From the NCBI GenBank assembly GCA_030041535.1, contig JASHNR010000037.1:33719-97718 (forward strand): a DNA stretch of 64,000 bases. The letters run 5' to 3'. The notes beneath the pieces are model-generated. The model saw only the letters and a list, made by a program, of their open reading frames with translations. It had not been told where the DNA came from and searched no databases. Shown here one piece after another: positions 1-7,660 of this stretch. This DNA is from Nitrosopumilaceae archaeon (lineage in GTDB: Archaea; Thermoproteota; Nitrososphaeria; Nitrososphaerales; Nitrosopumilaceae). Positions within the stretch are counted from its first letter, which is position 1, and every line of letters starts with the position of its first letter. The position numbers and the translations under genes were made by a program.

Positions 1-1944
1 TCGCTGACATATTATACTAATTGAAGGCAGGTTGCAGTTTTTGCACATTCTGTTATTGATGTTACAGTAAAAGTTGGGCTGTCTTGTTGCCTTGAGAAGA
101 TCGCGCGATGCACCGCCCTTGCTTCCAACCGGAAAGAGGGTATGGACTGGAGGCTTCATCTTTCTAAGTGACGCCTTTTCAGGCCTGCCAACCCTTACAC
201 CTACTGCCGTTGAGAATTTAGGCCTTATCTTGATTCCAGATGATATTGAGATTATCTCTGGGACTAATAGTGTCTTGTCCAATTGAATTGGTTTTCTAAA
301 AAGCAAATAAGAAAAAATTTTTGCCTCATCGTCTTTTAGCATGATTGTGTTGCCTGCCAACTCGTGGGGCACGCCAAGTTTTTCCAAGACCTCTTTTACG
401 TCTTTGTGATAAATTATTAGATCTGATTCTATCTTGTCTGGATTGAGGATCTTTTCTAGTTCTTCAGCTGTAATCTGGTCCCAATAATACAGATAGTATG
501 GGTGGAGTCCGATTCCAAAATTAAGTGATATTCTAAATGCCTCTTCAAGATCTGGAATCTTATGTATATTGCTTAATAGATCAGTGTCATCTGGTTCATA
601 CTTTGCAACCTTTTCTTTTAGTTCCTCAATCCAGAATTCCTCAACATATCCAGTTGGGACAAGCTCTGCATTGTTCTCAAGAAAGTCGCCGTAGCTTATG
701 AGAATGTCTCCAAGATGTAGAATTTTTTCAATGTGGGGTTTTAGCTGAATCCCATGTGAGGTGTCTCTTATCTTAACTACACTTCCATTGTCTAGTCTGA
801 CAATGGGAGTATCAATTGAATCGACAAATGCAATAGTTGAGGCTTTTCCTGGTATGTCAAGTTTTATCTGAGTGCCAACTGCAATTACATGATCTAAAAT
901 TTCTGCAATGACTGGGTGAACCCCAACTGATGCAAATCCTGTATTACATGCGCGTCCATATCGTAGCCTGAACCCGCCAAGTTTTTTTGGCATTGAAAGA
1001 ACGGACCTGCCAGTAATTACCTCCCTCATCCTGTGTGCTGCTGCGTCCTCGTCTCCAGTCTGGATGGCGCCCTTTAGGTCCTTGAGCCACTCCCAGCCAT
1101 CTAGTTTGAATAAATCAATGAGTTTTAGCAGTTTGCGAGACCTGCCAATAAGCCCATCGTTGAGTACACGAAGTGCCCCTCCCCGAACTCTGTTGGTGTT
1201 TATTCTTACCATGTTTCTGTGACTTACAATCTCTACTGGGTCGGTGTCGATGCCGTTAAGCTCTACAGGAAGGTTGGAAATGGTAGTTATCACATCCTCA
1301 TCAGGAACATGGAACTGAAAGCTTCCTACCTCTCTCTCATAGAGACGTAATTCCTCTACAAATCGGCCCGTCTCATCATCGTAGGAATTGGCTTTGTATT
1401 TGTCAAGTCCGGCGATCTTGCGTACATGGTCTGCAATAAGTATGGTAGATGCCGCTTCCGTGCCCCCTGCAGAACGTATGGGTCCTGCAAATGAGACTGA
1501 CAGATAGTCAGAGCCATCGGCATTCTTCTTTATCTTAACCTCGCTTATTCCCTGAAGTGGGGCTATTGTTACGCCTTCGGTCACTATTGCCAGTCCCACG
1601 CGCACAGCCAGGTCAAGCTTCTCTTGCAGCTCTGTCTCAGGACTCAAATATTTGCCCTGGGCTATCTCTTCTGCAAGTTTGAGTGCGGCTAGCTCCTTTG
1701 TTGTTGTCTGGATGAGGTTTCGGAGATTTTCCGTGACATCAATGTCGTGCATTTTGGACACACGATCAGCCAAGTCAAATGCTATCTTGGGCTCTACCAT
1801 TCCAGAGGAATCTGCCAATGTGGCCTTTGCAGCAGCAGCTTTTTCAAAAATTGAAAAGACTTCATTTGATAGCTTGCTGTAATAATCAAAATATGACTCG
1901 GGCATTGGGACTTCCTTGAGTCTCAATGCTATGTTTTCAGACAT
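1..1944 (-). CDS. polC: DNA polymerase D large subunit DP2 (partial, C-terminus beyond window start)
   Basis: Minus-strand reading from ATG at 1944: MSENIALRLKEVPMPESYFDYYSKLSNEVF...VSFAGPIRSAGGTEAASTILIADHVRKIAGL...; characteristic PolD DP2 sequence; open to window edge. Confidence 0.93.
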   Translation of the reverse strand, partial: MSENIALRLKEVPMPESYFDYYSKLSNEVFSIFEKAAAAKATLADSSGMVEPKIAFDLADRVSKMHDIDVTENLRNLIQTTTKELAALKLAEEIAQGKYLSPETELQEKLDLAVRVGLAIVTEGVTIAPLQGISEVKIKKNADGSDYLSVSFAGPIRSAGGTEAASTILIADHVRKIAGLDKYKANSYDDETGRFVEELRLYEREVGSFQFHVPDEDVITTISNLPVELNGIDTDPVEIVSHRNMVRINTNRVRGGALRVLNDGLIGRSRKLLKLIDLFKLDGWEWLKDLKGAIQTGDEDAAAHRMREVITGRSVLSMPKKLGGFRLRYGRACNTGFASVGVHPVIAEILDHVIAVGTQIKLDIPGKASTIAFVDSIDTPIVRLDNGSVVKIRDTSHGIQLKPHIEKILHLGDILISYGDFLENNAELVPTGYVEEFWIEELKEKVAKYEPDDTDLLSNIHKIPDLEEAFRISLNFGIGLHPYYLYYWDQITAEELEKILNPDKIESDLIIYHKDVKEVLEKLGVPHELAGNTIMLKDDEAKIFSYLLFRKPIQLDKTLLVPEIISISSGIKIRPKFSTAVGVRVGRPEKASLRKMKPPVHTLFPVGSKGGASRDLLKATRQPNFYCNINNRMCKNCNLPSISIICQR

Positions 1945-3244: not shown

Positions 3245-3805
3245 GTGATGTTAGTAGACATAGACGTAGGAACGATTTTGGGTGTAATAGCCTCGTTTAT
3301 GATTGGTATTGCATGCATAGCAGTATACAACAAGGTCAAACCACGCCTAGGTTCACAGAGCAATGATCTAAAAATTTTGGTAGAACGACTACAATATTAT
3401 GAAAATTTATTAATAGATATGAAAATAAAGTTAGATTCATTAGAACTAGCCAAGGAACCTGAAGAACTTGTACAGGCACAAATTCCAAGGCCAAAGGAAC
3501 AGAAGCAAGAGCCATCCATAGCCACGGAGACAAGAGAGGAGAAACCAAAGGAGAGAATACATAACATGAGTTTTGGAAGCGCCATAGAGTACGTGTTGCG
3601 ATTAATCACAGAAAAACCCATGACATCACGTGACATCCAGGTCACAATAGGAAGAACACGTGAACATACATCACGTATGATGAAAAAACTCTTTGAGGAG
3701 GGTTTGGTTGAACGAGACATGCGGACAAAGCCCTTTACTTACAAGATAACTGAAAAAGGGCTCATTAGGATAGGGTCGCTAAAGGCCCCAACAGTAGAAA
3801 CCTAG
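3245..3805 (+). CDS. Membrane-anchored winged-helix (MarR-like) transcriptional regulator
   Basis: N-terminal TM helix (VGTILGVIASFMIGIACIAVY), coiled region, C-terminal wHTH (KPMTSRDIQVTIGRTREHTSRMMKKLFEEGLVERD). Confidence 0.7.
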   Translation: MMLVDIDVGTILGVIASFMIGIACIAVYNKVKPRLGSQSNDLKILVERLQYYENLLIDMKIKLDSLELAKEPEELVQAQIPRPKEQKQEPSIATETREEKPKERIHNMSFGSAIEYVLRLITEKPMTSRDIQVTIGRTREHTSRMMKKLFEEGLVERDMRTKPFTYKITEKGLIRIGSLKAPTVET

Positions 3806-3999: not shown

Positions 4000-4155
4000 A
4001 TGTCAGACGCAGAACAGCTCATAAAGATAACCACAGCAGGCACGATCTCAATCCCGAAGGACTTTAGGAGATACCTTGGCCTTCAGAAGGGAGATTATGT
4101 TAAGGTAACAGTTGAGGGGGATCGTTTGGTTGTCAAAAAGGCAACAATTTCTTAA
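4000..4155 (+). CDS. AbrB/SpoVT-type DNA-binding protein (51 aa)
   Basis: Not in ORF track: MSDAEQLIKITTAGTISIPKDFRRYLGLQKGDYVKVTVEGDRLVVKKATIS*; typical swapped-hairpin AbrB domain. Confidence 0.85.
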   Translation: MSDAEQLIKITTAGTISIPKDFRRYLGLQKGDYVKVTVEGDRLVVKKATIS

Positions 4156-4547
4156 GTCGTAGGCCGTTCTCTTTGAGCCAGTTTGAGTATCTGGTAGCTC
4201 CATTCCTTCCCGTTTCTCTCTCTTGCAACTCTTCCTTTAAGAGCAAACCTTGAGAGGTATGTGGATATCACACTTAATTTGATCGGCTCCTCATACTCGT
4301 CCTCATATTTTTCAAGGATTAATGAAGAAGTAAACTTACCCATTGGGAAGTGCTTGTCCACAATGTTCCATATTTTGGCCCCAACAGTATCGGGTTGTAC
4401 TGATTCCTCGGGCTCCTCTATATTCATCAAGTCCATTAACTCAAATATCTTTAGCATTTTTTCACGGGTAACATTGCCCTCTAGGCTAAGGTTGTACTTG
4501 GCTCCTTCTGCGTCCTCCAAGTCTATTCGTATTCGTTTTCGGGCCAT
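4152..4547 (-). CDS. Conserved hypothetical protein, probable winged-helix
   Basis: 131 aa, convergent with the AbrB gene (4-nt overlap); C-terminal VISTYLSRFALKGRVARERNGKEWSYQI resembles wHTH. Confidence 0.55.
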   Translation of the reverse strand: MARKRIRIDLEDAEGAKYNLSLEGNVTREKMLKIFELMDLMNIEEPEESVQPDTVGAKIWNIVDKHFPMGKFTSSLILEKYEDEYEEPIKLSVISTYLSRFALKGRVARERNGKEWSYQILKLAQRERPTT

Positions 4548-4681
4548 TGTGATCGATCAAGTTAACACCTTAACACTTGAACAGATCATAGAAGAATTGT
4601 TAACAATCAAGTTTGTTAACATTCACTGCGTAACTCAGGCGTGGGTACTTTTCCCATCTTAACGGTCTTCTTCATGCTTTT

Positions 4682-4701
4682 ATCCAAGGACAGGCCAAAA
4701 C
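4682..4701. repeat. Right arm of 20-nt perfect inverted repeat
   Basis: ATCCAAGGACAGGCCAAAAC, ends 3 nt before ORB-like box 1. Confidence 0.85.
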
Positions 4702-4704
4702 TAT

Positions 4705-4728
4705 GCCTAGAGTGGAAATAAAGGGGTC
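4705..4728 (+). repeat. ORB-like origin recognition box 1
   Basis: GCCTAGAGTGGAAATAAAGGGGTC, identical to 4767-4790; resembles archaeal ORB core (AGTGGAAAnnAAGGGG). Confidence 0.8.
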
Positions 4729-4766
4729 CATTCAGGCATATTAACAATGTTAAGGACCATCTTCAC

Positions 4767-4790
4767 GCCTAGAGTGGAAATAAAGGGGTC
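4767..4790 (+). repeat. ORB-like origin recognition box 2
   Basis: 24/24 identical to 4705-4728, 62 bp centre-to-centre. Confidence 0.8.
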
Positions 4791-4859
4791 ATTTCGGGCT
4801 TTTTCTGGTTCCATCTTAACACCAACTTCACTAACTGTTAACCACTTCTAGGAATACCC

Positions 4860-4882
4860 ACACACCTATTCTTCCACTCTAG
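4860..4882 (-). repeat. Inverted, degenerate ORB-like box 3
   Basis: Reverse complement GCTAGAGTGGAAGAATAGGTGTG; 17/22 matches to boxes 1/2 including the CTAGAGTGGAA half. Confidence 0.65.
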
Positions 4883-4987
4883 CTTTATTAAAAATAATTT
4901 TTTTTAAGAAAATAAAAATAATTAATGATATACTAAATTTGAATTAGTTATTCTATTCTAATCTAATTAGTATGGTAGAGTCCTTAT

Positions 4988-6229
4988 GTGGACAGAGAAG
5001 AAACAATGGTGTGTGGGTTGATGACAAGAGATCCAGTTGATAAATTACTTGATGATGCAGCAAGCGGCAAATCATTATTCAAAAATAGAGAGGTATTGCA
5101 TTTTACATTCATACCAGATATGGTATTACATAGAGACGACGAGCAAAAAAAAGTTACCCAATCACTTATTCCATTGCTGAAAAAGGGCAGGCCATCAAAC
5201 CTGTTGATATATGGCAAACCGGGAACAGGAAAGACACTAGTTGTAAAAAAAGTACTAGACAAGATTCAAGAGCGAGTCAAGGATGGTTCATTCCCAATAC
5301 AACTACTATACGCAAATGCAAAAGAAGAGACTACACTATACGGCCTTTTGGTAAAATTTGGCCGCCAACTGGGACTTGCATCACAAAAGGAGCTACCGAC
5401 AACCGGACTGTCAATCAGTGAAGTCTTCAACAGGCTAATAGCAGTAATTGAAAAGAATGCCCTCAATACCGTCTTTGTAGTAGATGAGATTGATTATCTG
5501 GCAGAACTAGTATCAAAGACAGGAAAAGATGTCTTTTATTCATTAACACGAGCAAATGAGAGGCTAAAAAAAGGCTCACTTACCTTGATTGGCATATCAA
5601 ATGACCTGACATTCAAAGAAAGACTGGACCCCCGAGTTTTAAGTAGCCTAAGTGAGGAAGAGATTGTCTTTACCAACTATACAGTTAACCAGATCAAGGA
5701 GATATTGATAGACAGGATCAAGGAGGCCTTTATTCTAAACATAGTGAACCCGGCTGCTCTGAACTTATGTGCTGCAATGTCAGGCCAGGAACATGGCGAT
5801 GCTAGGCGGGCAATAGACCTACTTCGTGTAGCAGGCGAGATAGCAGAACGAGAGCAGTTTGATATTATAACAGAAGACCACATTCGTAGGGCCTCACTGA
5901 AGATGGAAGAGGATAAGGAAACAACAGCACTCAACTCATACCCCCTCCATGAAAAACTACTCATACTTGCAGTAATGAAGGCAAACGGCAACAGTACAGG
6001 TGAGATATATCAGTCCTACAAGAATCTCTGCAAGGTTACAAGACAGAAGGAGCTTACACAGCGCAGAATAACCCAAATGCTAAGCGAGATTGAGATGACA
6101 GGGCTAATCTCAGGCAAGATAATTCACCAAGGCATGCATGGAAGAACAAAGAAATTTGCTTTGACACTAAATCCAGACACTGTAAAAAAAGCATTCAAGG
6201 AAGATCTGGTCTTGGAAGATCTTCTGTAA
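4988..6229 (+). CDS. cdc6: Orc1/Cdc6 replication initiator AAA+ ATPase
   Basis: 413 aa; Walker A YGKPGTGKT, Walker B VFVVDEIDYL, sensor and C-terminal WH domain. Confidence 0.95.
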   Translation: MDREETMVCGLMTRDPVDKLLDDAASGKSLFKNREVLHFTFIPDMVLHRDDEQKKVTQSLIPLLKKGRPSNLLIYGKPGTGKTLVVKKVLDKIQERVKDGSFPIQLLYANAKEETTLYGLLVKFGRQLGLASQKELPTTGLSISEVFNRLIAVIEKNALNTVFVVDEIDYLAELVSKTGKDVFYSLTRANERLKKGSLTLIGISNDLTFKERLDPRVLSSLSEEEIVFTNYTVNQIKEILIDRIKEAFILNIVNPAALNLCAAMSGQEHGDARRAIDLLRVAGEIAEREQFDIITEDHIRRASLKMEEDKETTALNSYPLHEKLLILAVMKANGNSTGEIYQSYKNLCKVTRQKELTQRRITQMLSEIEMTGLISGKIIHQGMHGRTKKFALTLNPDTVKKAFKEDLVLEDLL

Positions 6230-7660
6230 CTAATCTTCTTTCTCGGTAAAATCTTTTGTAAAGACCTTCATTGTAGCCAAGTTGATAATTATGGCAATTC
6301 CAGGTGTTGGCACAATACCGCCGCTTGCCTGATAGTCAGTCTGACTCTGCCAGGCCCCGGAATTGACTATCAGTGTTCCTTTGTACATGTCAAGGTCGAC
6401 AACATGAACATGGCCGGAATGAAAGATATCTGGAACCTCATTTATCACCATAAAATCTTCAAGCTCGGGTGCAATTGGGGTGCGCTTTCCATAAATCGGG
6501 CTGAGGTGCCTTGTCCTCAACAGTGCTCGCATTGCCCTTGCTGGCTGTGCATAGCTTAGGCCCGGAGTAGTTCCTACTACATCATCAAGGCTCTGACCGT
6601 GAAACATTAACACCTTTACGCCATTAAGATCCAAAAAGGCAGGATTTCCTAGCATGAAAAAGTTCTCTCTATTCCACAAACTCATATTATGTTTTTCCGG
6701 TATGGCAGGCTGGGGAAGGGCCCTCCTACCTGGGTCATGATTGCCAGGAATTATGAATGTCTTGATGTGTTTTGGAATCTTGTCTAACATCTGGGCAGCC
6801 TTTGCCATTTGCTCGTCCATATCCATGATAAGCAATTCCTTATCTTGATTTGGAAAGATTCCAATCCCATCAATAATGTCCCCGCCTATCAAGAGAAATC
6901 GGACTTTTCTTGCTACTGGATCGGGGCTTGAAAGCCAGGAAATAAAATCTGTAAATTCCTTTTCCATAAAGTACTTGCTACCTACGTGAATATCTGATAT
7001 CAGGACAGCATACGTCTCAGTCTTTGAGCGATTTGCTATATGATCTGGTACATCTGGGACTAGAAGTTCCTTTGCGATAAATCCACCATTTTTGCCATTT
7101 GTAACGCCTACCATTACAAACTGGTCCATTAAAAGCGAGTTTGCAGTATCCTGCAATTCTTGGTTCCACACCAGAATCTCTACAGAACCGGTAGGATCAT
7201 CCACTATTATCTTGGTTACATCCCGCTCAATCTTTCTGTCCATCAGAAGGCCTGCAACAAATGTCTCCTCGCCAAGCTTACCATCTGTCACATTTTTAAT
7301 TGGGGTAAGTTTCTTTGCCTGTGATCTCTGCATCATTATTTTAAGTAGTTTTGAATATCTGTCAGAAAAAAGTGATGTAAAACCATCTATTCCCTCTGCC
7401 GATGTGATCTTTTTTGTAGGATCAAACAATATCTCATGTCTGTCCTCCACACCGCCGTCAACTTCTGATTCTACAAACATTTTGAGGTCGCTTTGATTTA
7501 TCAAAAACAAGTTTTGCTTTGCCTTTTCACGAACAACCTGTTTAATTATATTCTGGAGTTCCTTTGCATCTATCTTTTCTAATATCTTAAAAGCATCAGG
7601 ATGAATCTGAAATCCCCTACTTAGGGCATATGTTACTGCTGAGGATACCGCTTCTTTCAC
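6230..7660 (-). CDS. polB: DNA polymerase D small subunit DP1
   Basis: 476 aa; OB-fold plus calcineurin-like phosphoesterase (ISDIHVGSK, GGDIIDG, IPGNHDPGR, FHSGHVH). Confidence 0.92.
   Translation of the reverse strand: MKEAVSSAVTYALSRGFQIHPDAFKILEKIDAKELQNIIKQVVREKAKQNLFLINQSDLKMFVESEVDGGVEDRHEILFDPTKKITSAEGIDGFTSLFSDRYSKLLKIMMQRSQAKKLTPIKNVTDGKLGEETFVAGLLMDRKIERDVTKIIVDDPTGSVEILVWNQELQDTANSLLMDQFVMVGVTNGKNGGFIAKELLVPDVPDHIANRSKTETYAVLISDIHVGSKYFMEKEFTDFISWLSSPDPVARKVRFLLIGGDIIDGIGIFPNQDKELLIMDMDEQMAKAAQMLDKIPKHIKTFIIPGNHDPGRRALPQPAIPEKHNMSLWNRENFFMLGNPAFLDLNGVKVLMFHGQSLDDVVGTTPGLSYAQPARAMRALLRTRHLSPIYGKRTPIAPELEDFMVINEVPDIFHSGHVHVVDLDMYKGTLIVNSGAWQSQTDYQASGGIVPTPGIAIIINLATMKVFTKDFTEKED

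Follow-up and report, generated by a model that had tools for sequence, protein, structure and literature searches.

Several archaeal replication origins of the Orc1/Cdc6-ORB kind have been described. At Sulfolobus oriC1, an Orc1-1 origin, ORB2 and ORB3 flank the duplex unwinding element (DUE) in inverted orientation, an additional ORB lies outside this core, and the AT-rich element contains the ucm (PMC12141716). A single origin has been mapped in Nitrosopumilus maritimus (PMC4010727); both there and in Nitrosocaldus cavascurensis, ORB repeats ahead of the cdc gene serve as an origin marker (PMC5797428). The common archaeal ORB motif of DoriC/Ori-Finder 2 reads TCCA[CG]T[TG]GAAA[TC][GA]AAGGGGT (PMC4164010), and Haloarcula oriC1 uses a G-rich inverted repeat as an enhancer (PMC4010727). 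Published knowledge of how replication starts in the ammonia-oxidizing archaea is scant, though these are among the most abundant microbes.

The window analysed here, the whole 64,000-nucleotide stretch of DNA, contains a locus that is well supported by its sequence features as the chromosomal replication origin of a Nitrosotalea-type archaeon; it is of a known kind, namely oriC1-type and Orc1/Cdc6-dependent. The genes and origin elements are arranged as follows.

1–1944, minus strand: PolD large subunit (DP2), running off the window (PolC_DP2_central, 3.7e-114)
4152–4547, minus strand: 131-residue winged-helix protein, divergent neighbour of cdc6
4705–4728, plus strand: ORB1, exact 24-mer GCCTAGAGTGGAAATAAAGGGGTC (36.7 bits, ORB1/2 matrix)
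4767–4790, plus strand: ORB2, identical to ORB1 (41.8 bits, ORB1/2 matrix)
4857–4880, minus strand: ORB3, inverted, variant type AGAGTGGAAnnnnnGGTGTGTGGG (35.8 bits, ORB3 matrix)
4881–4993, unstranded: AT-rich tract between ORB3 and ORB4, putative duplex unwinding element, from a stability scan and conservation
4913–4926, plus strand: conserved 14-mer TAAAAATAATTAAT inside the AT tract, present at 75/83 loci
4994–5017, plus strand: ORB4, AGAGAAGAAACAATGGTGTGTGGG (25.3 bits, second-best ORB3-matrix match in the window)
5021–6229, plus strand: orc1/cdc6 initiator gene, 402 residues from the likely true start ATG 5021; the longest ORF begins at GTG 4988
6230–7660, minus strand: PolD small subunit (DP1) (DNA_pol_E_B, 2.4e-18; Metallophos, 7.4e-12)

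An earlier note, made from the DNA letters alone, had proposed an origin on the basis of two identical 24-mers, a third inverted copy and a TTAAC cluster lying directly upstream of orc1/cdc6, with the PolD subunit genes on either side. Each of these elements was recovered, the 24-mers starting exactly 62 bp apart on the same strand and the inverted copy occupying 4857–4880. Weight matrices for ORB1/2 and ORB3 were built from 50 non-Nitrosotalea loci and then run over the window. The ORB1/2 matrix returned the sites at 4767 and 4705, and its best non-ORB site scored −3.7 bits. The ORB3 matrix returned 4853–4884 on the minus strand and 4990–5021 on the plus strand, followed by a site at −2.0. 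The second of these hits is ORB4, a box overlooked in the earlier note and found here with a matrix made solely from other genera. In the 1.83-Mb assembly, ORB1 and ORB2 are the only matches to GCCTAGAGTGGAAATAAAGGGGTC at up to three mismatches, and a pattern for the ORB3/ORB4 type, written post hoc, matches ORB3 and ORB4 only.

The four boxes form a tandem pair, ORB1 and ORB2, followed by ORB3 and ORB4 inverted around the AT element, with the G-rich ends of the latter two both facing away from it. ORB3 and ORB4 share the variant type in which GGTGTGTGGG replaces AAGGGGTC; ORB4 is the most degenerate of the four. The locus has the features of an Orc1/Cdc6-ORB (oriC1-type) origin: several ORBs, here four, with a GAAA core and a G-string, an adjacent orc1/cdc6 gene, and ORB3 (minus) and ORB4 (plus) inverted around the AT-rich stretch 4881–4993. 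Everything predicted at the sequence level for an Orc1/Cdc6 origin is present and conserved, and ORB4 places boxes on both sides of the AT tract, which supports the earlier reading.

As in Sulfolobus oriC1, inverted ORBs surround an AT-rich element and additional ORBs lie outside the core (PMC12141716). The locus differs in having its outer ORBs as a tandem pair on one side, a distinct type of flanking box and a TTAAC array, and TAAAAATAATTAAT resembles the Sulfolobus ucm in position only. Compared with the DoriC/Ori-Finder 2 motif (PMC4164010), the TGGAAATAAAGGGGT half with its G-string is retained, whereas the 5′ dyad half has become GCCTRG in Nitrosopumilales, ORB1/2 carrying GCCTGG in place of the canonical TCCA half; CTCCAGTGGAAA is kept in deeper families. 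Haloarcula oriC1 also has accessory repeats beside its ORBs, but their sequence and arrangement differ from those seen here (PMC4010727). The predicted or mapped origins of N. maritimus and N. cavascurensis have ORB repeats upstream of cdc6, as does this locus, and the accounts of them covered here mention neither a TTAAC array nor a fourth box or a mirrored module (PMC4010727, PMC4164010, PMC5797428). Two things go beyond the known kind of origin: the anatomy is corrected to four boxes and a new start of cdc6, and TTAAC sites form a conserved component.

Alignment with related thaumarchaea, a check suggested in the earlier note, revealed the same architecture across Nitrosopumilales. An unconstrained scan placed ORB1 and ORB2 61–62 bp apart in its Nitrosopumilales loci, and 83/83 unique loci show this spacing; the ORB3-to-ORB4 distance is 67–125 bp, mostly 111–125. 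All four boxes and the TTAAC array are present in a closed 1,645,259-bp genome, presumably that of N. maritimus SCM1; the first base of its sequence record falls within the AT element. In deeper families of the order ORB pairs are retained, mostly carrying the canonical CTCCAGTGG half and often spaced by about 60 bp, and several of these families preserve the order forward, forward, reverse, AT, forward. Upstream of cdc6 in one Nitrosopumilus MAG (L101), the ORB4 box occurs twice in identical form, 227 bp apart, as a tandem duplication or an assembly artefact.

The AT-rich unwinding tract of the earlier note, 4884–4975, is 88% AT and is contained in the 100 bp with the highest AT content and the lowest thermodynamic stability in the window; the least stable 100 bp begin at 4878. 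When the complete 1.8-Mb chromosome of N. devanaterra was read as adjacent stretches, the homologous origin stretch was the least stable 100 bp genome-wide. Over 83 loci the ORB3–ORB4 gap has a median of 117 bp and is 82% AT. The 14-mer TAAAAATAATTAAT within it, allowing at most one mismatch, was found at 75/83 loci as compared with 3/830 shuffles, and occurs once in the window and once in N. devanaterra; it is possibly a ucm-like protein site or a promoter element.

Strand skew, another check suggested in the earlier note, was measured in the closed relative N. devanaterra only, the window's own assembly consisting of 66 contigs, and gave weak to moderate support. The keto skew supported an origin here, its best position lying 82 kb off (block-shuffle p 0.002, fixed-point p 0.001), and the GC skew was weak, with an optimum at a distance of 223 kb (fixed-point p 0.036).

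The product of the adjacent gene belongs to the Orc1/Cdc6 family (TIGR02928, 351 bits) and matches solved Orc1 structures at 1e-80; it is the single strong Orc1/Cdc6 of its genome. The first 11 codons of the longest ORF (4988–5020) coincide with ORB4, and alignments with non-Nitrosotalea Cdc6 homologues mostly begin only at about residue 9–15. ATG 5021 is conserved right behind ORB4, and one locus (L031) has an in-frame TAA directly before it. Translation of cdc6 probably starts at this ATG, judging from these comparisons, and the longest ORF is then 11 codons too long. With this start, 3 bp separate ORB4 from the coding region, and autoregulation would be possible; initiator bound at ORB4 could also repress its own gene. 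A second, divergent Orc1/Cdc6 with about 30% identity is encoded in some Nitrosotalea genomes (G035:C1:120517-121638, with comparable genes in G015 and G018). In N. devanaterra the genome scans did not rank its neighbourhood among their top sites for ORBs or TTAAC.

On the other side of the origin, the divergent 131-residue protein is a predicted winged helix with an N-terminal strand-hairpin part. Of the named loci, 77/80 have its gene beside cdc6, and 260/300 genomes of the order contain it; the protein is likely to be associated with the origin. The family has weak similarity to Penicillinase_R (BlaI/MecI-like) in 24/25 members, at best 4e-4. A second small winged-helix protein (MarR/Lrs14-like), with an N-terminal hydrophobic segment, is encoded at 3245–3802 on the plus strand, between the PolD large subunit gene and the origin.

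The TTAAC sites lie between the winged-helix gene and ORB3, interleaved with the boxes.

4548–4651, plus strand: left module, a conserved non-coding block GATC..GTTAAC..TTGAAcrGATC..TTGTTAACn8TTGTTAACaTTnACTG, from a profile match
4561–4566, unstranded: TTAAC-array site GTTAAC
4570–4574, plus strand: TTAAC-array site
4599–4604, unstranded: TTAAC-array site GTTAAC
4615–4620, unstranded: TTAAC-array site GTTAAC
4659–4663, plus strand: TTAAC-array site
4741–4745, plus strand: TTAAC-array site between ORB1 and ORB2
4749–4753, minus strand: TTAAC-array site GTTAA between ORB1 and ORB2
4816–4820, plus strand: TTAAC-array site between ORB2 and ORB3
4837–4842, unstranded: TTAAC-array site GTTAAC beside ORB3

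The eight plus-strand motifs of the earlier note were recounted from 4562 to 4838, and merging both strands gave nine distinct sites, the additional one being the GTTAA at 4749. Nine sites in 326 bp (4555–4880) compare with a mean of 1.1 ± 1.0 and a maximum of 6 in 2000 dinucleotide shuffles. A TTAAC triple within about 80 bp is unique to the origin in the window's own assembly, and the N. devanaterra origin has 12 sites in 350 bp as against 6 in the next-best window and a mean of 0.44. The 83 origins carry about nine distinct sites apiece; their consensus is the palindrome TGTTAACA, and spacings of 9, 11, 12, 16, 30 and 43 bp recur. A genome-wide avoidance of TTAAC outside the origin was considered and rejected; it is merely general TTAA depletion, none being specific under a maximal Markov model. 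GATC is found at 2.9 per 450 bp as compared with about 1.6, and an analogy with SeqA/Dam was considered and set aside.

The profile of the left module matches the window at 4520–4651 (E 5.6e-36, the window itself contributing to the profile) and the N. devanaterra genome once (E 6.4e-32, next 8.5). The conserved block gave no Rfam match to an RNA gene. Six loci with a longer ORB4–cdc6 gap have a second, inverted copy of the module on that side (E 5e-9 to 4e-3). In the cdc6 tree the mirrored-module loci stand on both sides of the deepest split, requiring four changes. The distribution fits an ancestral two-armed origin with later losses, repeated gain being the alternative.

Among the families of the order, f1, f2, f3 and f8 are rich in TTAAC, f9 and f14 are intermediate or mixed, and f4, f6, f7, f10, f11, f12, f13 and f16 are near background. 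We take f1 to be Nitrosopumilaceae, f2 Nitrosocaldaceae and f8 Nitrososphaeraceae, and from this we infer that the array is tied to ammonia-oxidizing lineages. A genome with ORB-like repeats and the TTAAC array is believed to be that of N. cavascurensis. Many other Nitrososphaerales origins have these boxes but a weak array or none, indicating that ORB-type origins in general can do without it. No earlier description of the array was found in the literature covered, from which the main N. maritimus origin-mapping paper was absent.

The position of the boxes just before cdc6 raises the alternative that they are Cdc6 autoregulatory sites only, the AT tract being the cdc6 promoter and the real origin lying elsewhere. 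The overlap of ORB4 with the cdc6 start region and the diffuse skew minima are in its favour. This alternative is nevertheless highly improbable: four oriented boxes, conserved over families, surround a stretch that in a relative is the least stable DNA of the entire genome, N. maritimus has one mapped origin (PMC4010727), and no second cluster was found, either of ORBs in a closed relative's genome or of the 24-mer or ORB3/4 pattern in the window's own assembly. The whole is best explained, with high confidence, as an Orc1/Cdc6-dependent oriC1-type origin with four ORBs, an AT element and a TTAAC array, almost certainly the only site at which copying of this chromosome begins. Weighing against this reading are the weak GC skew, the missing TCCA half of ORB1/2 and the degeneracy of ORB4.

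The earlier note had set the TTAAC cluster apart from the classic ORB and suggested that it may bind another factor, a suspicion consistent with the comparison of families, in which the array follows the origin rather than the neighbouring gene. In f2 and in the f8 genera g42, g55, g57, g58 and g60, cdc6 and the winged-helix gene are not neighbours, and in such genomes 10–14 TTAAC sites are still found upstream of cdc6 (about 2.2 expected) with just 1–4 upstream of the relocated gene. Relocation of the gene thus leaves the array beside cdc6 and the boxes, which assigns it to the origin/cdc6 side and rules it out as the operator of the winged-helix gene. These comparisons identify it as a real origin component. 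The same genomes argue against an autoregulatory transcriptional operator, comprising the array and the mirrored module, that would serve both cdc6 and the divergent winged-helix gene and have no part in replication. Such an operator would suit the left module, which abuts the winged-helix start codon, the inverted copy just before the cdc6 start in six lineages, and the palindromic targets of BlaI/MecI-like repressors, which the winged-helix protein weakly resembles. However, TTAAC sites also lie between ORB1, ORB2 and ORB3, far from both start codons, the module is single-copy in the genome with no regulon, and some lineages have the winged-helix gene and no array; the shared operator is therefore unlikely. 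The array may regulate cdc6 alone, or the winged-helix protein may bind it in trans. The score of the winged-helix gene correlates with TTAAC enrichment (Spearman 0.39, p 0.006), a relation confounded by phylogeny and by loci that have no cdc6.

A centromere-like partition site beside the origin, analogous to parS/SegB, would also consist of clustered palindromes that are unique in the genome and origin-adjacent; the genome encodes ParA-like proteins, and the winged-helix model is weakly similar in fold to the centromere-binding AspA and TubR, among many winged helices. However, the fold search with this model (pLDDT 69) gave no PDB match at E 0.001, and the ParA-like matches are all on other contigs. 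The archaeal SegB motif, TCTAGASTCTAGA, occurs at dispersed sites (PMC12284271) and by inspection is absent from 4300–5300. A partition site is a more doubtful explanation than a shared operator.

By analogy with known archaeal origins, Cdc6 would bind, MCM would be loaded and replication would fire at this locus. The Orc1/Cdc6 made by the adjacent gene would bind all four ORBs, and the inverted ORB3/ORB4 pair flanking the ~113-bp AT-rich element would direct MCM helicases into it. On one side, the tandem ORB1 and ORB2, which are separated by some six helical turns, may strengthen or nucleate initiator assembly. The TTAAC array, interleaved with the boxes, would most likely bind a second origin factor; its sites are densest in the module, which in some lineages is repeated in inverted orientation beyond ORB4, and the putative factor would shape or regulate the initiation complex. 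We tentatively propose, at somewhat under even chances, that the origins of ammonia-oxidizing archaea use a second sequence-specific factor on the TGTTAACA array (on one or both arms) beside Orc1/Cdc6, and that this arrangement arose once in the clade and was kept through its radiation. The four-box map gives footprinting and copy-number experiments exact positions to aim at, and the conserved TTAAC array of these origins provides a ready bait sequence for its putative binder.
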